From positions 1-34,470 of the forward strand of contig JAFGMK010000022.1 of assembly GCA_016927565.1 (NCBI GenBank): a stretch of DNA of 34,470 bases, written 5' to 3'. A model generated the notes under the pieces. It did no database searches. It was not told where the DNA came from and saw only the letters and a list, made by a program, of their open reading frames with translations. Numbering within the stretch: the stretch's first letter is position 1; each line of letters starts with the position of its first letter. The stretch is from Minisyncoccota bacterium (lineage in GTDB: Bacteria; Patescibacteriota; Microgenomatia; PFEM01; JAFGMK01). This document shows positions 8,474 through 29,945 of the stretch, piece after piece. The translations under genes were made by a program, and so were the position numbers.

Positions 8474-8485
8474 AAAGTAAAAAGA

Positions 8486-8691
8486 GCATTACTATCGCTA
8501 CTTGACCCTTGTTTGAAAAGTTCAGTACGAATAGTAATGCCCTTTAAAGGACTGCAAGTCAGGACAGGTGACTTGCTAATCTAAACAGAAAAATAACACA
8601 AGAAAAACAGGTTGTCAATCCTGTTTTTACTCTGGATCTGATAATCTTCAAAAATGAGAGTAGTGTGTAGGGCAGGCGCGCTACTCTCATT
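8486..8691 (+). ncRNA. run of hairpins, candidate structured RNA
   Basis: A gene-free stretch with four well-formed stems. GCATTACTAT (8486-8495) pairs with ATAGTAATGC (8531-8540), and CG and ACT steps continue the helix inside. CCTTTAAAGG at 8541-8550 is self-complementary. GCAAGTCA (8554-8561) pairs with TGACTTGC (8569-8576) around loop GGACAGG. A terminator-like stem lies at 8603-8628. AATGAGAGTAG (8653-8663) pairs perfectly with CTACTCTCATT (8681-8691). A strong promoter lies upstream, and a T8 run at 8735-8742 closes the region. I do not recognise tmRNA, SRP RNA, 6S or RNase P signatures. Confidence 0.45.
8603..8628. terminator. perfect-stem intrinsic terminator
   Basis: AAAAACAGG (8603-8611), loop TTGTCAAT, CCTGTTTTT (8620-8628). 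The 9-bp stem with A/T flanks can act in both directions. It may end the transcript from the 8261 promoter. Confidence 0.6.
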
Positions 8692-8800
8692 CTTGGAGGT
8701 TAAGAGATCGCCGCCAAGCCGGGCTTTCTTGCAGTTTTTTTTAAAAGACAATATACTCGATACTCATTACTTTTTGATTGCGAACTATTAAAATTTAGTT

Positions 8801-10883: not shown

Positions 10884-12215
10884 ATGACTCCGACCGGACA
10901 AAAGACAGGCTCCTCTAGCAGGAGGCCGCCTGCCAGACAATTAAAAAAAGCTGTTTCCAAGCAACCGGAACCATTGACAGTTGATGAAATTGTCGGCGAG
11001 AAAAAGCCGGCGGCAACTGTTTTTTCCCGGCCCTCCTCTTCGGCCGGAACGGCGCCAAGACCAAGATTCAACGGCGTGGTTGATGACCGGGTTATCCCCG
11101 ATGCTGGAGTGCCGACTGAATACATGGAAGGTGTTTTAGACCAGATGGGTGACGGTCACGGATTCCTGCGGCCCAAATTTTCCCCTTCCAATCGCGATGT
11201 TTATATTTCCGGTTCTCAAATCAGAAGATTTTCGCTGAGACCGGGCGATATGGTTGGTGGCCAGGTCCGCTCGCCGAAGGAAAACGAACGTTATTACGGG
11301 ATTCTGAAGGTAGAAAAAGTCAACGGGGTTGAAATCGAAAAATTGAAGACCCGGGCAAACTTTAGCGACTTGGTTCCGGTTTATCCTAACCAGTTGATTA
11401 AACTGGAAACAGAAAAGGATATTTTAACAACCCGGATTATTGATTTGGTGGCTCCCATTGGCCGGGGACAGCGGGGATTACTTGTTTCTCCGCCGAAAGC
11501 AGGTAAAACCTGGCTTTTAAAAGATATTGCCAACGGAATCACTCAGAATTTTAAAAACATTCATTTGATGGCTGTTCTGGTGGGAGAAAGACCGGAAGAG
11601 GTGACTGATATCTCCCGATCGGTTAAGGGTGAAGTGATGGCTTCAAATTTTGACGAGCCGCCCGAACATCAGACCCGGGTGGCGGAAATTGCTCTTGACC
11701 GGGCCAAGCGTTTGGTTGAGATGGGCCGGGATGTGGTAATTTTACTTGACTCGATTACCCGTTTGGCCCGGGCTTACAATCTTTGTATTCCCACTTCGGG
11801 CCGGACTCTGACCGGCGGGTTCGATCCGGCGGCTCTTTATCCGCCAAAACGCTTTTTCGGAGCTGCCCGTAACATTGAAAACGACGGATCGCTGACTATT
11901 ATCGGCACCACTCTGGTTGACACCGGGTCAAAGATGGACGATCTGATTTATGAGGAGTTCAAGGGAACGGGCAATATGGAACTCCATCTTGACCGGCATC
12001 TGGCGGAACGGCGGGTTTTCCCGGCGATTGATATTCAGCGTTCAGGCACCCGGCAGGAACAGCTTTTATATGATCCTAAGTACTATCCTCAGATCGTGGT
12101 AATGCGGAAAATGGTTGATCTTCTAGGCAAGGACGAGCGAACTGCCTTGTTTTTAGAGCAACTGAAAAAAACCAAGAATAATGAGGAGTTCTTGAAAAAT
12201 TTGAATAGAGCGTAG
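10884..12215 (+). CDS. rho: transcription termination factor Rho
   Basis: A 443-residue hexameric RNA helicase. Residues 1-75 are a polar, Pro/Ser/Lys-rich lead-in. The cold-shock-like RNA-binding domain lies at about 80-150 (GHGFLRP, NRDVYIS). The RecA-type motor has Walker A PPKAGKTW (203-210), Walker B VVILLDSITRLARAYN, and the Q/R-loop segments (GTGNMELHLDR, ERRVFPAIDI). All are standard. It starts at ATG 10884 with GGGAGG 6 bases upstream, one of the few genes here with a good Shine-Dalgarno. The N-terminal helical domain of E. coli Rho is largely replaced by the disordered lead-in. Confidence 0.97.
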   Translation: MTPTGQKTGSSSRRPPARQLKKAVSKQPEPLTVDEIVGEKKPAATVFSRPSSSAGTAPRPRFNGVVDDRVIPDAGVPTEYMEGVLDQMGDGHGFLRPKFSPSNRDVYISGSQIRRFSLRPGDMVGGQVRSPKENERYYGILKVEKVNGVEIEKLKTRANFSDLVPVYPNQLIKLETEKDILTTRIIDLVAPIGRGQRGLLVSPPKAGKTWLLKDIANGITQNFKNIHLMAVLVGERPEEVTDISRSVKGEVMASNFDEPPEHQTRVAEIALDRAKRLVEMGRDVVILLDSITRLARAYNLCIPTSGRTLTGGFDPAALYPPKRFFGAARNIENDGSLTIIGTTLVDTGSKMDDLIYEEFKGTGNMELHLDRHLAERRVFPAIDIQRSGTRQEQLLYDPKYYPQIVVMRKMVDLLGKDERTALFLEQLKKTKNNEEFLKNLNRA

Positions 12216-19507: not shown

Positions 19508-22102
19508 ATGATGTACGACCATCAATCTTTAGAAAAAAAGTGGCAGAGCTGCTGGAAAAAAGAAAAAACCTTTCAGCCGGATTTGAAAAAGGCGGGAAAG
19601 CCTTTTTATAACCTGATGATGTTTCCCTATCCTTCGGCAGAAGGCTTGCATGTGGGGAATATGTACGCTTTTACCGGAGCGGATATTTACGGGCGTTTTA
19701 TGCGCCTGAAAGGTTACGACGTTTTTGAACCGATTGGTTTGGATGGTTTTGGAATCCATTCGGAAAATTACGCTTTAAAAACAGGCCGTCACCCTTTTAA
19801 ACAAGCCGAAAGAAGCCAGAAGAACTTTTACCGCCAGCTTCACGCTATCGGCAATCAATTTGCCTGGGACAATCATTTGGAGACCTATGATCCCGATTAC
19901 TATCGTTGGACTCAATGGATCTTTGTCCAGTTTTTCAAAAATGGTTTAGTTGAGCGGAAAAAAGCGACCTTGAACTGGTGTCCTTCCTGTAAAACAGTTT
20001 TGTCGGATGAGCAGGTGGAGCCTAAGGAGGGAAAAAATGTTTGCGAACGGTGTAAGGCCGAAGTAGAACGGAGAGAGACCGAACAGTGGTTTTTTAAAAT
20101 CACCGACTATGCCGAAAAACTGCTTGATTATCATGGAACCAAATGGCCCAAAACGACTCGGCAAATTCAGACGAATTGGATTGGGAAAAGCGAAGGAGCA
20201 ACGGTTTTATGGAGAATCAAACCCTGCCAGGGATCCGACCCTGTAGTCGAGTTCGGCACTTTTACCACCACCATTGACACTATTTTTGGCGTCACCTTTA
20301 TTGTGGTTTCGCCGGAATCTCCTTATTTAGAAAAATTAGTTACAGAGGAGCAGAAAAAAACAGTCGATGCTTACTTGGAAAAAGTGAAAGGGAAGACTGA
20401 GGTTGAGCGGATGGAGGCCAAGGAAAAAGACGGAGTTTTTACCGGGAGTTATGCGGTCAGCCCGGTTAATGGCCGGGAAGTGCCAATTTGGGTGGCGGAT
20501 TATGTGTTAATGAACTATGGAACCGGAGTGGTGATGGGGGTGCCGGCTCATGACCGGCGGGATTTGGAGTTTGCCCGGAAAAACAAACTGGAAATTATTC
20601 AGGTGATAGAGTCCAAAGGAAAAAGTTTTGTTTATGACGAGGTTGACAAACATTCCGTTAAGGGGAAAATTGTTAACTCGGAAAACTACACCGGCTTGTC
20701 AATTCTGGCTGGTAGAGAAAAGATAACTGATGATTTGATAAAAGAGGGAAAAGCAAAAAGAACGGTTAATTACAAACTGCGTGATTGGTGCATTTCCCGG
20801 CAGCGTTATTGGGGACCGCCGATTCCGATGATTTATTGTCCAAAATGTGCTAAAGAAGGCAATTCTTGGTTTACCAAGTCAAATAGTTCAGGATCGGATC
20901 CGGCTAAAGATGTAAGTCTTTTAACAAAAGAAAGAAGACAAAAATTGGCTCAGGAAATGGCCGGGTGGTATCCGGAAGCGCCGAAGAATCTGCCGGTGGA
21001 ATTACCCTATGTTGAGGACTACCAACCGAGAGGTAAAGGGCAATCGCCCTTAGCGGGAGTGAGGAGCTTCTATCAGGCCAAATGCCCGGCCTGCGGAGCT
21101 GAGGCAAGGCGGGAAACGGATGTTTCGGATACTTTTCTTGATTCAGCCTGGTATTTCTTGCGCTACCCCTCAACTGACTGCAAAGATCAACCTTTTGATC
21201 CCAAGACAACCAAGAGGTGGTTGCCGGTAGGGATGTATATCGGCGGCCAGGAACATGCCTGTCTTCACCTTTTATATGCCCGGTTTGTGACGATGGCGCT
21301 TCACGATTTAGGCTATTTGGATTTTATTGAGCCTTTTAAAGAGTTTTTTGCTCATGGTCTGATTATTAAGGATGGAACTAAAATGAGCAAATCTAAGGGG
21401 AATATCATTGTGCCGGATGATTATATCGGCAAATATGGCGCAGATGCTCTCAGGATGTATCTTATGTTTCTGGGGCCAATTACTCAGGGTGGTGATTTCC
21501 GGGATGCGGGAATGCAGGGAATGAAGCGTTTTTTGAGCCGTCTCTATCAATTAGCGCAAAAGAGTGCTAAAAAGGAAGCGAAACCCATATCGAAAGATGC
21601 CGGAATGGGCTCTTCCGATGTGACGCTGTCAGAGAACTTAATCAAAAAACTTCATCAAACCATCCGGAAAATGGGAACAGATTATGGCAAAAAAAAGTAC
21701 AACACTGCCCTGGCCGCCTTAATGAAATTGACCAATGTCTGGCAAGCTTATCCGGAGAGTGCTAATAAGGATTTTGTGGGAATTGTTGCCCGGCTGATAG
21801 CGCCGGTGGCGCCTCATTTGGCCGAAGAATTCTGGCTGATATCCGGAGGAAAAGGTTCTGTTTTTGCGGCCGCCTGGCCTGAATTTGATCCCGAATTAGT
21901 TAAAGAAAGCGAAGCTGAAGTAGTGATTCAAATTAACGGCAAGTTGAGGGAAACAATTAAGCTTGAATTGGCGGTAGCCGGTAATCAGGAAAAGGTTTTG
22001 GAAAAAGTTCATGTCTCCCGAAAGGTGCAAAAACACCTGGGAGGCAGGGAGCCGAAAAAAGTAATCTTTGTGCCGGGAAAGTTAATCAACTTAGTTGTCT
22101 GA
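19508..22102 (+). CDS. leuS: leucyl-tRNA synthetase
   Basis: An 864-residue class I synthetase that charges tRNA-Leu. HVGN (48-51) is the HIGH-type motif after FPYPSAEGL; KMSKS is at 625-629. The CP1 editing domain is present (FTTTIDTIFG, VPAHDRRD), so mischarged tRNA can be hydrolysed. Two Cys pairs after the first core part (CPSCKT, CERCKA) form a zinc site, and further Cys pairs (CPKCAK, CPACGA) flank the second insertion. The C-terminal VIQINGKLR is typical. ATGATG at 19508 leaves a 3-base ambiguity in the start. Length is normal. Confidence 0.97.
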   Translation: MMYDHQSLEKKWQSCWKKEKTFQPDLKKAGKPFYNLMMFPYPSAEGLHVGNMYAFTGADIYGRFMRLKGYDVFEPIGLDGFGIHSENYALKTGRHPFKQAERSQKNFYRQLHAIGNQFAWDNHLETYDPDYYRWTQWIFVQFFKNGLVERKKATLNWCPSCKTVLSDEQVEPKEGKNVCERCKAEVERRETEQWFFKITDYAEKLLDYHGTKWPKTTRQIQTNWIGKSEGATVLWRIKPCQGSDPVVEFGTFTTTIDTIFGVTFIVVSPESPYLEKLVTEEQKKTVDAYLEKVKGKTEVERMEAKEKDGVFTGSYAVSPVNGREVPIWVADYVLMNYGTGVVMGVPAHDRRDLEFARKNKLEIIQVIESKGKSFVYDEVDKHSVKGKIVNSENYTGLSILAGREKITDDLIKEGKAKRTVNYKLRDWCISRQRYWGPPIPMIYCPKCAKEGNSWFTKSNSSGSDPAKDVSLLTKERRQKLAQEMAGWYPEAPKNLPVELPYVEDYQPRGKGQSPLAGVRSFYQAKCPACGAEARRETDVSDTFLDSAWYFLRYPSTDCKDQPFDPKTTKRWLPVGMYIGGQEHACLHLLYARFVTMALHDLGYLDFIEPFKEFFAHGLIIKDGTKMSKSKGNIIVPDDYIGKYGADALRMYLMFLGPITQGGDFRDAGMQGMKRFLSRLYQLAQKSAKKEAKPISKDAGMGSSDVTLSENLIKKLHQTIRKMGTDYGKKKYNTALAALMKLTNVWQAYPESANKDFVGIVARLIAPVAPHLAEEFWLISGGKGSVFAAAWPEFDPELVKESEAEVVIQINGKLRETIKLELAVAGNQEKVLEKVHVSRKVQKHLGGREPKKVIFVPGKLINLVV

Positions 22103-22426: not shown

Positions 22427-23734
22427 GTGGCATTTCCGGAAAGTTTCCGATCTGAAGATGGCAATGGTCCCTGGATTAGTCTTGATCTTACCGAAATCTA
22501 TTTCTATCAGGCTCACCAATATCCGTTATTGACGGCTGAAGAAGAGGTTAGATTGGCAGATTTAAGAGATCGGGGAATAGAGGCAGGCAGGAGGTTAAAA
22601 CAAGAACCGGATTTGGAGGCTGGTGAAAGAGAAGCTTTGTTTGCCAGACAAGAAGAAGGGTCTAAGGCGTTTCGGGCTTTGATTCGTGCCAATTTACTCT
22701 TGGTTGCCAAAATAGCTGCAGGATATTGGCGTCTGGATGAATATCCCGATTTGATTCAGGCCGGCAATGAAGGATTAGTGCTGGCGGCCGGAAAATATGA
22801 CCCCGGGCGGGGTTTTCGTTTTTCCACCTATGCCGCCTTGGCGATTAAACGGGAAATCTGGGATTATCTGCGGCGGTCAGAAAGTATTCCTCTGACGTTG
22901 ACAGATTTTAGAGAAGTAAGAAAGTTACAGCAGGAACAGGATTCTGCCTTGCAAAAACTGGGGAGAGAGATGAATTTGGCTGAATTAGCCGATAAGTTTG
23001 GCTGGTCGCTTGAGAAAACTTTAACGCTACTTCGTCTGAGCAATGGTCAGATTGCTTCCCTTGATTGGAGCTGGAAGGATGGTGATAAAGATGCCTCCCC
23101 CAGCTTGTATGATTTTCTTTCTGACGATAGTCAGGATCTGGAGAGAAAGGCAGCGGAAGCTTATTGGCAAGGCAAACTCCCCGATTTTCTCCGGCAAGCC
23201 GGATTAAGCCGAAGAGACTTGCTTGTTCTCCAGTATCTGCTGATTGACGGAAAGACGCAAACAGCGGCAGCTGAATTATTAGGAATCACCCAAGAGAGAG
23301 TTGGCGAGCTTCTGAGAAAAGCCATGGGAAGATTATTCAGTCTGGCTTCCAGGAGTCCGGGATTCAGAGCCTGTCTGAATGACTTCGGCCTTTGGCCGGA
23401 TGAGGATGATGGCGATACGGGCAGTCAGATTGGATCGGATGCGGGAAAAGGTTCTCAATCTCAATTTCCGTCTGGCGACTCTGAAAAAAGGGTGACAGAT
23501 TTTTTCTTTAGCCAAGCCGGTTTAACACCAGAGGAAACAGAGGTCGCAAAGCTAATTTTATTGGATCGCTTAATACCAGATGAAGTTTTCCGCCGACTGA
23601 ATCCGGGGAAAACTCCCAATCGGCATCTGATAGATGAAATAGTCGAAATTGAAGAAATAATAATCGGAAAACTTAACGCCTTGTTATCAAAACATCCGGA
23701 ATATTCGAATACCCTTCATCAGCTTTTGAGTTAA
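22427..23734 (+). CDS. divergent sigma-70 family factor with extra C-terminal region
   Basis: 435 residues. Region 1.2-like segment (about 25-50, YQAHQYPLLTAEEEVRLADL), region 2 (about 83-155, with DLIQAGNEGLVLAAGKYDPGRG and FRFSTYAALAIKREIWDYL), region 3 (about 165-215) and region 4 (about 265-310, DGKTQTAAAELLGITQERV). After an acidic Gly/Ser/Asp linker, about 80 more residues (LTPEETEVAKLILLDRLIPDEV and on) look like a second region-4-like helical module. The GTG start has GAGG 10-13 bases upstream. It differs from the second sigma gene at 28989 and is probably an alternative sigma factor. Confidence 0.75.
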   Translation: MAFPESFRSEDGNGPWISLDLTEIYFYQAHQYPLLTAEEEVRLADLRDRGIEAGRRLKQEPDLEAGEREALFARQEEGSKAFRALIRANLLLVAKIAAGYWRLDEYPDLIQAGNEGLVLAAGKYDPGRGFRFSTYAALAIKREIWDYLRRSESIPLTLTDFREVRKLQQEQDSALQKLGREMNLAELADKFGWSLEKTLTLLRLSNGQIASLDWSWKDGDKDASPSLYDFLSDDSQDLERKAAEAYWQGKLPDFLRQAGLSRRDLLVLQYLLIDGKTQTAAAELLGITQERVGELLRKAMGRLFSLASRSPGFRACLNDFGLWPDEDDGDTGSQIGSDAGKGSQSQFPSGDSEKRVTDFFFSQAGLTPEETEVAKLILLDRLIPDEVFRRLNPGKTPNRHLIDEIVEIEEIIIGKLNALLSKHPEYSNTLHQLLS

Positions 23735-26565: not shown

Positions 26566-26591
26566 GGATTGATCCCTGTTAAGGTAAATAA

Positions 26592-26687
26592 AAAGACCCG
26601 GGTGTTCTCGATTTTTTTTTCGTAGCATTATTGCAACAAGAAAAAAAATCGCCAGCTGGTAAGGCTGAAGCGAATACTCGGGTCTTT
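26592..26687 (+). ncRNA. three-helix structured RNA element
   Basis: An outer 16-bp helix pairs AAAGACCCGGGTGTTC (26592-26607) with GAATACTCGGGTCTTT (26672-26687); its two wobble pairs are G-U only on the plus strand. An inner helix pairs CGATTTTTTTT (26609-26619) with AAAAAAAATCG (26641-26651) and continues to a 6-base apical loop. A small third stem (CAGC 26653-26656/GCTG 26663-26666) fills the 3' side. The terminator at 26693 follows. It may be a small RNA or the 3' end of the com transcript. Read on the minus strand, the outer helix ends in TTTTT and could end the VWA gene. No known RNA family is recognised. Confidence 0.5.
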
Positions 26688-26692
26688 GACTC

Positions 26693-26726
26693 CAGGTCAC
26701 CCTGAGGGATGGGTGACCTGTTTTTT
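26693..26726 (+). terminator. strong intrinsic terminator (plus strand)
   Basis: CAGGTCACCC (26693-26702), loop TGAGGGAT, GGGTGACCTG (26711-26720), then TTTTTT (26721-26726). The 10-bp perfect stem serves the com genes and the structured element. It touches the stop codon of the minus-strand gene. Confidence 0.85.
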
Positions 26727-28324
26727 CAGTCGCACATGGCGAGGGGTAGAAATAGCCCCTCGGGGAGGATAGTAACTGCCACGATGGCAGTGTTATCCTC
26801 CGGAATCGGATCCGGAAGGTCGGATTTAATTTCCGACGTTAGAGTGAACGGCCTGGTGGCCGATTCACCTAACAAGCAGGAGAAGGATAATTCTCCTGTT
26901 TCTCCCGGATGAAGGCTCATATTGGTGAGCCTTATTTTTCCGGTTATGCCCTGGTAGGGGCATTCTGGGGGGAATTCTCCCCAGATTTCGGCCGCGGCAG
27001 TTGCCGGGCCGATGTTTTGATAGCCAACCTGAAAGTTGGCTCTTCTCCCCGGGCTGATTGGTCCCAGGGTGCGGAAACGGCTGATCCGGAGATCAGCCTC
27101 GTCATCATCCAGGATGACGAGGATGGCTTGGCCCTTTTCAGGGTCAATTGCCGCTCCTGTCATTCCGAAGAAAGACAGGGAGATGGTTTCGTCCCCTTCA
27201 GGACGATTGTCTTGAAGGGTTCTCAGCGATACCCGTTTCCGGGTTTCCGGAGGTTCAATCCGGAAAGAGATGGCGGTTGCCATCTCATAGTCCACCCCGG
27301 CTTCTGCCGAGATGGGCGTGATAGAAACAGTTCCCTGAACTGTTTCTTGGGGAGCTCTTTCGAGCTCCACGATAATGACGGCCCGGTTGCCTTCTTCAAC
27401 AAAGAAGGTTTCCTGGCCGAAGCTGGCCAGAGGGAGGATCGGCCAGCTGTCGCTGACCACTCCCTCCAGTCCCTGATCCAGGCGGACGGTCGCCTGGGCG
27501 TCTGTTGTCAGGGAGTTTGCCGCAATGTCCGTAGCGGCAGTCATCTCGACGGTTTCATTTCCGCCAAGATTGATCAGCCAAATATCGGGGCCAGCGGCCC
27601 CTTCCAGGCTGATTTCGACCCATCCCCAAACGGGGTATGGGTTGAGGTTTAAGAGGCGGATTACGAACACCGCCTCTTCCCCGGGTTGGATCTCGGGGTT
27701 GGTCAGTTCGATCTGCACCTCGATTTGAGGTACGATCGAATCCACTTCTTCGGCTTGGAAAGACAGCAGATACCTGCTGACCTCCAGCCTCCTCTCCACG
27801 GGAGGAGTTTGGCCGGTGACTTCCGATTGGAAGTACCAGACTACCCCTCCTCGAAGGAGGATGCTGCCGATTACCGACTGTGATTCGGCATCGGCCTGGC
27901 CGTCGCCAAAGACGGCTACTCCCCAAGGAGAGGCTCCGATCTCAGGGATGACTTTCCAGCTGAGATCAAGGCCTTCTTTCAGGGCCCGGCTCAGAAGGGT
28001 GTTTCCCTTCTTAGTCAAGTCCTGACCGGCCAGACAGGTTCTGGCCTGATCCGGGCTTACCGCGTGGCAAACCACGCGGGTATCGTCGTTGAAGACGATA
28101 ACTGAGACCAGGCTTTGCGGCCTGATCTCAGCCAGCCGGTCGAGCATCTGATCCGCTGATTGGCGGTCCTGCTCGATCCCGGTCTGGCTCCGGGAATCTG
28201 ACAGGTCAAAAATGACCGTCAGATACTGGAGATTGCTCTCCAGTTTTTCTTCTCCGGCCGCGGCAGGGCTACTAGGCCCTGCCAGGGACAGGAGGACTAA
28301 TAGTAATAACTTTAACTTTTTCAT
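26726..28324 (-). CDS. secreted VWA/Calx-beta protein with hairpin-tiled coding sequence
   Basis: 532 residues from ATG 28324, chosen because AAGGAAAAG lies just upstream and the signal peptide (MKKLKLLLLVLLSLAG) then starts at residue 1; an ATG at 28351 adds nine residues. A von Willebrand A domain covers about 33-190 with MIDAS DLSDS (Asp40, Ser42, Ser44). A conserved-repeat-like domain follows, then a Calx-beta domain at about 295-400 (DNRPEGDETISLSF), then a CARDB/DUF11-like domain to the end (FLPLAMCD). No membrane anchor or sorting signal is seen, so it is probably secreted and binds ligands with metal ions. The DNA is visibly richer in G+C than its neighbours and almost entirely folded into short inverted repeats (separate entry). 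Confidence 0.85.
   Translation of the reverse strand: MKKLKLLLLVLLSLAGPSSPAAAGEEKLESNLQYLTVIFDLSDSRSQTGIEQDRQSADQMLDRLAEIRPQSLVSVIVFNDDTRVVCHAVSPDQARTCLAGQDLTKKGNTLLSRALKEGLDLSWKVIPEIGASPWGVAVFGDGQADAESQSVIGSILLRGGVVWYFQSEVTGQTPPVERRLEVSRYLLSFQAEEVDSIVPQIEVQIELTNPEIQPGEEAVFVIRLLNLNPYPVWGWVEISLEGAAGPDIWLINLGGNETVEMTAATDIAANSLTTDAQATVRLDQGLEGVVSDSWPILPLASFGQETFFVEEGNRAVIIVELERAPQETVQGTVSITPISAEAGVDYEMATAISFRIEPPETRKRVSLRTLQDNRPEGDETISLSFFGMTGAAIDPEKGQAILVILDDDEADLRISRFRTLGPISPGRRANFQVGYQNIGPATAAAEIWGEFPPECPYQGITGKIRLTNMSLHPGETGELSFSCLLGESATRPFTLTSEIKSDLPDPIPEDNTAIVAVTILPEGLFLPLAMCD
26740..28283 (-). repeat. continuous array of about 40 short inverted repeats inside one gene
   Basis: From just after the signal-peptide codons to the stop, the coding sequence is a chain of hairpins about every 40 bases, each with its own sequence. 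Perfect examples: GGCAGGGC/GCCCTGCC (28262-28283), TATCGTC/GACGATA (28081-28100), CCGCGTGG/CCACGCGG (28060-28079), AAGAGGCGG/CCGCCTCTT (27651-27678), GAAACAGTT/AACTGTTTC (27324-27346), GAGATGGC/GCCATCTC (27267-27286), CCTCGTCATC/GATGACGAGG (27097-27122), GGCTGATC/GATCAGCC (27079-27098), AAGGCTCA/TGAGCCTT (26912-26933), CAGGAGAA/TTCTCCTG (26877-26898). About 25 stems have 7 bp or more. The first 40 bases of the frame have none. Confidence 0.9.
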
Positions 28325-28988
28325 TGTCTTTTCCTTTTCTCCTGCCCTCATCAGGATCGGCCAGTGGCCGGGGAAAGAGAAAAGGCTTTTTGATTGATCA
28401 GGGATAGCTTCTTAATCGGTGCTGTTCCTGCATTTTAGCTTTTCTGCTTCCTGGGCCACTGGTCTGAAATCAATGGAGAAAAAAATCCCGGGAAATATGT
28501 TGCCTGCGGATTTTGTTCGACTGAAAAAAATGTTAAAGAGCCGGTCCGCTTTCGGTTAATCTGCCTTACGGATAATTACCGGCTGTTTAAAGGCATTTTT
28601 CCAAGCGGATTAAATTACCAATTGGCTTTTGCCCGGTTTTTTACCAAAGCGATTTTTGGCTAACCGGATTCAGAAGCCGTTTTTACTAAATAGTGATATT
28701 ATTTTTTTGACAGCAGGGAAAGTTAATTAAAAATAATCTTTTTATATTTAAAGTCATCTTATCATATCAAAATAGTTAAGGCGTGTCTATTATAGGACTG
28801 ACCAAAACTGAAAATTGGTTGGTTGTTGGCCGATCGGTTTTGGTAAAGACGGCCACTGTGCCGGAAAAAGATATTGAGGGTTGATTTTTAACTGGCTTTC
28901 AGGAGAATATTATTAAAGAGTAAGCTGATAGATTAAAAAAATGTCTTTAAGCAGACAGATTGGCTGGTTGACAGGAGAGCAATAAACA
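28325..28988. other. gene-poor stretch between the VWA gene and the sigma gene
   Basis: It carries the minus-strand leader of the VWA gene, with a CGGCC/GGCCG stem at 28358-28370. A 74-codon plus-strand open stretch (28439-28663) contains CGFC but has no usable start codon and may be a gene remnant. A GTG frame of 33 codons (28783-28884) overlaps a hairpin, ACCAAAAC (28801-28808) with GTTTTGGT (28837-28844), that encloses the palindrome CGATCG. The last 50 bases lead into the sigma gene (GGAG at about 28975-28978). I can assign no gene with confidence. Confidence 0.45.
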
Positions 28989-29945
28989 ATGACAGAATTA
29001 GAGGGATCAGAATCCAAGCCGGCAGGTAGTTGCGTTTCGGCTGGTCAGGTTGGTGATGCTGGTACGGATAAGCTTCTGACTCTTTATCTCAAGGACATTC
29101 AACAACCTTTATTGACTGCTGAGCAGGAGAAAGAATTGGCGAGGAAGGTTCAGAGTGGGATTCGGGCAAAGCAGGCTCGGGAAAAAGGCGAACCCGCCGA
29201 TTCGGCGGTGATTGAGGCCGGAGAAGCGGCTCGCCAAAAGTTTATCGAAGCCAATCTTCGCTTGGTGATTTCATTTGCCGTAAGGTGTACCGGCCGGGGA
29301 TTGCCTCTTGAAGATCTTATTCAAGAGGGGAATATCGGGTTGATGGAGGCAGTAAACCGGTATGATCCGGAAAGAACCAATCGGTTTTCTGCCTTCGGTG
29401 GATGGTGGATTTGGCAGGCAATGATCAGGGCGATTGAAAATCAGGGGCGATTGATCCGGCTGCCGCCACATGTGGATGATCAACTAAGAAAAGTGAGGCA
29501 GGCTCAGGAAAATCTGAATCATAAATTAGGCAGAGATCCGACACCCGAGGAATTAGGTGCAGAAATGGGGATAAGCAACGATGAGGTCAGCAGAATTCTG
29601 AAAAGATCTCAGGAGCCGCTTTCTTTAGAAGCTCCGGTTGGTGAACGGGGGAGGGTTTTAGGTGATCTGCTTCCGGTTGCCGGGGTGCCGTCTCTGGAAG
29701 ATTGCGCTGATTTGGTGTTATTGCAGCGGGCGTTCGATGTTGCTTTGGGAAATCTATCTCCCCGGGAGCGTAAAATGGTGGAGATGCGTTATGGTCTTGC
29801 AGGAGACGGGACTCAGAAAAAATGGGAAGAGATCGGGGAAAGTTTCGGCGTCACCGGTGAGCGGGCCAGAGTGATTGTAAAAAACGCCCTGAGAAAACTG
29901 GAAGAACCTTCTGTCAGACAAAATTTACAACCCTGGGCTGATTAG
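28989..29945 (+). CDS. RpoD-type sigma-70 factor
   Basis: 318 residues. After a variable N-terminus, region 1.2 (LLTLYLKDIQQPLLTAEQEKELA, about 29-51), region 2 (about 82-150, NLRLVISFAV, DLIQEGNIGLMEAVNRYDP, FSAFGGWWIWQAMIRAIENQ), region 3 (about 160-210) and region 4 (about 240-305, LSPRERKMVEMRYGL, WEEIGESFGVTGERARVIV) are complete. No long region 1.1. It directs RNA polymerase to -10/-35 promoters. Region 2.4 and 4.2 are close to housekeeping factors, so it could be the primary sigma factor or a group 2 paralog. Purine-rich GGAGAG lies about 9 bases before ATG 28989. Confidence 0.9.
   Translation: MTELEGSESKPAGSCVSAGQVGDAGTDKLLTLYLKDIQQPLLTAEQEKELARKVQSGIRAKQAREKGEPADSAVIEAGEAARQKFIEANLRLVISFAVRCTGRGLPLEDLIQEGNIGLMEAVNRYDPERTNRFSAFGGWWIWQAMIRAIENQGRLIRLPPHVDDQLRKVRQAQENLNHKLGRDPTPEELGAEMGISNDEVSRILKRSQEPLSLEAPVGERGRVLGDLLPVAGVPSLEDCADLVLLQRAFDVALGNLSPRERKMVEMRYGLAGDGTQKKWEEIGESFGVTGERARVIVKNALRKLEEPSVRQNLQPWAD

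Follow-up and report, generated by a model that had tools for sequence, protein, structure and literature searches.

Why should a protein-coding gene of a bacterial chromosome be tiled over its whole length with short hairpins, and does the tiling belong to the DNA or to the mRNA made from it? The question is raised by a gene on the minus strand of contig JAFGMK010000022.1 from a Minisyncoccota bacterium, analysed here over 34,470 nucleotides (the window; contig label C24). An earlier note, written from the sequence of this stretch, had described about 40 hairpins in the gene, with about 25 stems of at least 7 bp, where one or two would be expected by chance.

Hairpin tiling in the window gene and in the genome

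Counting perfect inverted repeats with loops of 3-12 nt and without overlap gave 22 stems of at least 7 bp (13.5 per kb) and 34 of at least 6 bp in the window gene (Table 1). The fold of its mRNA strand contains 49 hairpin loops, or one per 33 nt, arranged in 51 consecutive hairpin domains with about 65% of the bases paired. These numbers are close to those of the earlier note, and its estimate of chance was equally sound: synonymous codon shuffles yield 1.12 stems of 7 bp or more per kb, corresponding to about 1.8 for this gene. The folding energy lies 17-20 SD under that of protein-preserving codon shuffles. The 21 other ORFs of the window have 0-3 stems of at least 7 bp each (0-2.9 per kb), as had been stated for the neighbouring genes; this restriction does not extend to the whole genome, in which two more tiled genes were found. 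The tiling itself is confirmed by stem counts, shuffles, neighbours and genome scan alike.

For the genome scan, all 31 contigs (1.19 Mb) were read; the relatives and the small size of the genome suggest that it belongs to the Candidate Phyla Radiation. The local folding energy of 901 ORFs of at least 150 codons was compared with codon permutations that change neither the protein nor the codon usage. The most extreme value among all genes is that of the window gene (z of -19.5), followed by those of the genes C31:7698-9098 (-17.2) and C10:16370-17677 (-12.9), named here after their contigs, whereas the fourth-ranked gene reaches only -5.7 and the mean of all ORFs is -1.1 (SD 1.5). Moreover, the window gene ranks first of 4,664 one-kb windows, with 16 stems as compared to a mean of 1.16, and when 300-nt windows of either strand were folded (15,816 folds) and corrected for composition, the same three loci again came out highest. 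Tiling in this genome, as these computations show, is nearly confined to three genes. Their longest stems measure 11-15 bp and their longest unpaired run 8-19 nt; the tiling runs on into the 3' UTR. With the window gene as query, blastn detected no repeated unit in the genome, in line with the earlier remark that the stems differ and do not form a palindromic repeat family.

Expression signals, products and relatives

Table 1. Elements of the tiled window gene and its flanks.
Feature	Position	Strand	Remarks
TCCTATA box overlapping -35-like TAGACA (28789-28784)	28784..28797	-	Also at the promoters of the C31 and C10 tiled genes
-10-like TATGAT, 17 bp from the -35	28761..28766	-	Probable transcription start near 28755, from the sequence
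Leader, ~400 nt	28352..28755	-	z -3.0 vs dinucleotide shuffles
Leader stem-loop, motif GCCAAA[AG]AT[AC]GCTTTGG at 28660-28644	28632..28668	-	
Ribosome-binding-site hairpin, GGAGAAAAGG (28342-28333) x CCTTTTCTC (28385-28377)	28333..28385	-	
Hairpin-tiled ORF	26726..28351	-	541 codons
Hairpin chain, ~50 hairpins, stems <=11 bp	26740..28283	-	Domain span median 25 nt, gap median 2.5 nt
3' UTR hairpin, 10 bp, CAGGTCACCC...GGGTGACCTG	26693..26720	-	Genome-wide, otherwise only after the C10 gene
Nested terminator-like 3' element, outer stem AAAGACCCG/CGGGTCTTTTT around CAGC...GCTG and an A/T stem	26590..26687	-	

The three tiled genes share more than their folding. Upstream of each, TCCTATA overlaps or precedes a -35-like element and is followed by a TATAAT-like -10, resembling a sigma-70-like promoter. 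The leaders, 300-400 nt long, are less tiled than the coding regions (z of -3 to -6), and exact matches to the motif of the leader stem-loop (Table 1) occur in the genome in these three leaders only. The 3' end is shared by two of the three genes: the nested element behind the window gene, with which the transcript would end near 26590, is about 68% identical to the 3' end of the C10 gene, with 3 pairs changed on both sides, and an analogous nested 3' stem follows the C31 gene. The ribosome-binding site of the window and C31 genes forms a stem with a part of the leader upstream of it. The likely start of the window ORF is ATG 28324, codon 10 of the listed ORF; the stem-free start reported earlier holds for the mostly unpaired sequence after this ATG and fails for the ribosome-binding site just upstream, which is paired. 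Two genes for sigma-70 family factors lie within 7 kb (22427-23734 and 28989-29945 of the window), flanking the tiled gene and a natural-competence cluster (ComEA-like, ComEC, metallo-beta-lactamase), and one of the two factors could drive the TCCTATA promoters. In front of the C31 promoter, a 57-bp sequence (C31 7301-7357) belongs to a dispersed repeat with a dozen or more genome copies of 74-86% identity.

All three tiled proteins start with a signal-peptide-like segment, and their products are predicted to be secreted. The window protein begins with MKKLKLLLL... and ends with LFLPLAMCD; it comprises a VWA-like region at residues of about 43-174, Calx-beta at 310-417 and a weak DUF11 at 420-525. 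The Calx-beta match (PF03160) scores 27.6 bits at a cut-off of 27, and in the Pfam comparison for VWA the window protein stays below the cut-off with 13.1 bits, whereas the C10 protein passes VWA_2 with 31.3 bits. Alternating helices and strands are predicted for residues 43-174 with moderate confidence, and the structure models are of low confidence outside the VWA region. The window and C10 proteins, both with VWA and Calx-beta features, are paralogs that have diverged far, BLASTP giving about 26% identity in an alignment of 445 columns; the C31 product, a predicted secreted protein, is unrelated or unrecognised. All three proteins end with LP[LMV] and 3-4 further residues, a loose pattern noticed after the fact and present in 3 other ORFs of the 901. 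The C31 protein additionally contains a short in-frame duplication (C31 7800-7880, RVDFDPPALQARADFDPPALEQ), the sequence of which itself folds into long hairpins.

Neither 59 relatives nor the genome collection, IMG/VR, plasmids or phages yielded protein relatives, and no orthologue was found in the genomes searched. Profile searches with the paralogs in 137 genomes of the class and 287 of the phylum returned only weak VWA or Calx-beta matches, none of them tiled, and the C31 protein had no match in the 287 phylum genomes. Matches to the leader motif, sought in IMG/VR, in 84,980 species genomes and in 280 genomes of the class, were consistent with chance and none adjoined a tiled gene, and a homology-free scan of 885 kb from two genomes of the same order detected no tiled gene. 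Secreted VWA/Calx-beta proteins have a domain content like that of the window and C10 products, yet the members checked in class and phylum are untiled: this applies to VWA genes elsewhere in the class and on C15 of the same genome, and to the Calx-beta genes checked in class and phylum. Since other VWA genes are untiled, the tiling goes with the promoter and leader and not with the protein domain. The nearest genomes searched represent other families of the same order, and the trait may be recent or restricted to an unsampled family.

Probable selection on the mRNA

The folding gain of the sense over the antisense strand exceeds that of shuffles in all three tiled genes, with z of -2.2 in the window gene and of -5.4 and -3.6 in the other two. 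The window gene by itself gives a weak strand signal, with few G-U pairs and nearly equal folding of both strands. Single stem interruptions comprise 21 G-U as compared to 5 A-C, an excess that is partly explained by the G+T-rich composition of two of the tiled genes. A criterion independent of energy is the sequence of the 4-nt loops: GNRA or UNCG accounts for 8 of 39 on the sense strand and for 0 of 39 on the antisense strand, whereas in other genes the share is about 4.5% on either strand. The enrichment of G-U pairs and of GNRA/UNCG loops on the mRNA strand favours selection on RNA over a mutational process in DNA, and RNA-level selection on the three mRNAs is well supported.

The comparison of the paralogs is in line with selection for tiling as such. 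When the pairs of the window gene were mapped on the C10 gene via the protein alignment, 9 of 348 coincided, compared to 3.4 (SD 4.3) in a shifted-register control, and no conserved stem positions were thus found between the two above this control. The aligned nucleotides are 42% identical, a level at which ancestral stems would be erased. That both genes are tiled without common stems implies that the tiling, and not particular hairpins, has been maintained or renewed since their divergence. Furthermore, stems occur in all three codon phases, and 32% of the pairs are in the phase least helped by synonymous change, which indicates that the protein sequence has been altered too. In all three genes the order of amino acids raises complementarity at codon positions 1 and 2 to about twice the shuffled level, and most of the effect still comes from synonymous choice, as seen from 'syn' versus 'full' shuffles. 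Of the causes considered in the earlier note, the first, that a secreted protein's mRNA has been selected to be structured, has the best support, from the strand-biased G-U pairs, the sense-only GNRA/UNCG loops and the tiling kept in paralogs, whereas a role of the structure in stability we can only infer.

Structural selection on bacterial coding regions is usually weak and debated, and the tiled genes present a much stronger case. According to a survey (PMC6544989), structural selection acts in a species on 2-3% of the coding sequences on average; there, as here, the arrangement of synonymous codons results in extreme structure among alternatives for the same protein. That survey gives ranks among alternatives, whereas the tiled genes lie 13-20 SD away with continuous tiling and involvement of the amino-acid sequence and, unlike the surveyed cases, their structure coincides with a common promoter, leader and 3' elements. 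Dispersed palindromic repeats, REP among them, also place short hairpins in transcripts, for which mRNA stabilisation was proposed (PMC3733652), but they form repeated extragenic families, whereas the stems of the tiled genes are all different and lie inside the ORF.

Functional readings and alternatives

Our preferred reading, held tentatively and at somewhat under even chances, is that the three genes form a regulon, the mRNAs of which are selected from end to end for local folding into a series of ~25-nt hairpins, resulting in stable, translation-controlled messages. Genes for RNase III, RNase Y and Rho are present in the genome, and RNase III prefers stems longer than 11-15 bp. Following this, we propose that hairpins of at most 11-15 bp would be too short for a good RNase III site, that RNase Y, 3' exonucleases and Rho would find hardly any single-stranded RNA, and that a ribosome-binding site in or beside a stem would render translation slow or available on demand; long-lived messages might in this way provide secreted, adhesin-like proteins for a cell with a minimal genome. 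It is the combination of short stems, few single-stranded sites and a buried ribosome-binding site that suggests a stable, translation-controlled message. Points against this are that altering the protein sequence is costly for a mere benefit in stability, and that the leaders are less tiled than the coding regions, a difference for which a role in stability alone gives no reason. The data point to RNA-level control of a kind undescribed for ordinary genes of a chromosome. No account of genes like these was found in the literature, which is weak evidence because open-access sources only were covered. The data also suggest that some ultrasmall bacteria encode mRNA half-life or translation along the whole message and not in its untranslated ends; moreover, the confinement to three co-marked genes makes the role of coding-region structure directly testable by synonymous swaps. 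More doubtful is the broader proposal of a new mode of bacterial expression, in which a dedicated regulon would produce mRNAs that are compact, nuclease-proof objects (stored, localised or exported) as well as messages, to which the encoded proteins are bent.

Alternatively, elongation speed and not stability might be selected: regularly spaced hairpins would slow the ribosomes and thereby coordinate export and folding of multi-domain, beta-rich secreted proteins. All three products seem to be secreted, the coding sequence is tiled more than the leaders, and one hairpin per 30-34 nt is close to the footprint of a ribosome. However, a spacing of about 33 nt would result equally from end-to-end packing of 25-nt hairpins, the untranslated 3' UTR is tiled as well, and the other VWA genes of the genome and class are untiled. 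We consider pacing of translation unlikely.

A process at the DNA level, namely repeated template switching at quasi-palindromes by which genes under weak constraint acquired perfect inverted repeats, is disfavoured and in our view improbable. The many perfect Watson-Crick stems, the nearly strand-equal folding of the window gene and the presence of stems in every codon phase would be in accordance with it. However, this process, the second cause named in the earlier note, predicts neither an excess of G-U pairs and GNRA/UNCG loops on the sense strand nor the restriction to three genes with a common promoter and leader, about 900 others being unaffected; it could still supply the variation on which selection acts.

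We judge it quite improbable that the transcripts undergo packaging, export or replication in the form of RNA, or that they come from RNAs that did so; descent from a structured RNA element was the third cause in that note. On this view the chain of hairpins would make them compact or shield them, as it does the genomes of ssRNA phages, and the shared 5' and 3' elements would be handling signals. By the same method, the maturation and replicase genes of MS2 reach z of -11.3 and -10.2 with 0.9-1.8 stems per kb, the window gene -17.1 with 13.5 stems per kb, and its energy per nucleotide is -0.47 versus -0.35 to -0.37 in MS2; among ordinary genes of the window, Rho (10884-12215) has a z of -3.3 and the 864-aa ORF at 19508-22102, by inspection presumably LeuRS, one of -2.4. 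With MS2 as yardstick, the three mRNAs are predicted to fold tighter than an RNA virus genome, which would be very unusual for chromosomal genes. Like the genome-scale ordered RNA structure (GORS) of RNA viruses and like MS2, the window gene has order-dependent local structure across the coding sequence, far past codon-preserving shuffles, and the shared terminal elements and the bent protein sequence also fit an RNA element. Unlike these viruses, the tiled genes are chromosomal and without replicase or capsid, and the contig carries ArgRS, Rho, rRNA and other ordinary genes; the structure of the tiled gene is denser than that of MS2 and also simpler, with short, almost perfect hairpins in a row. 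Moreover, the tiled genes stand singly among ordinary genes, each with its own DNA promoter, their proteins carry ordinary VWA and Calx-beta domains, no viral, phage or plasmid relative was found, and Rfam gave no match above the gathering score.

A side effect of composition is refuted: the tiled genes are GC-rich (0.56-0.59, the mean of the genome being 0.436) and RNA of high GC content folds better, but codon-preserving shuffles fix the composition and still give z of -12.9 to -19.5, and composition is not the cause because other GC-rich genes (GC of 0.57-0.64, z of +1.9 to -5.7) are untiled. The next most structured gene, C23:15430-16281 (z of -5.7), encodes a permease-like protein on a GC-rich contig and ranks far below the tiled three. 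Strong hairpins are also present in the intergenic region 8480-8720 of the window (e.g., at about 8486-8544, and GAGAGTAG...CTACTCTC at about 8657-8689), which lacks an Rfam match and has a folding z of about -5 on either strand.
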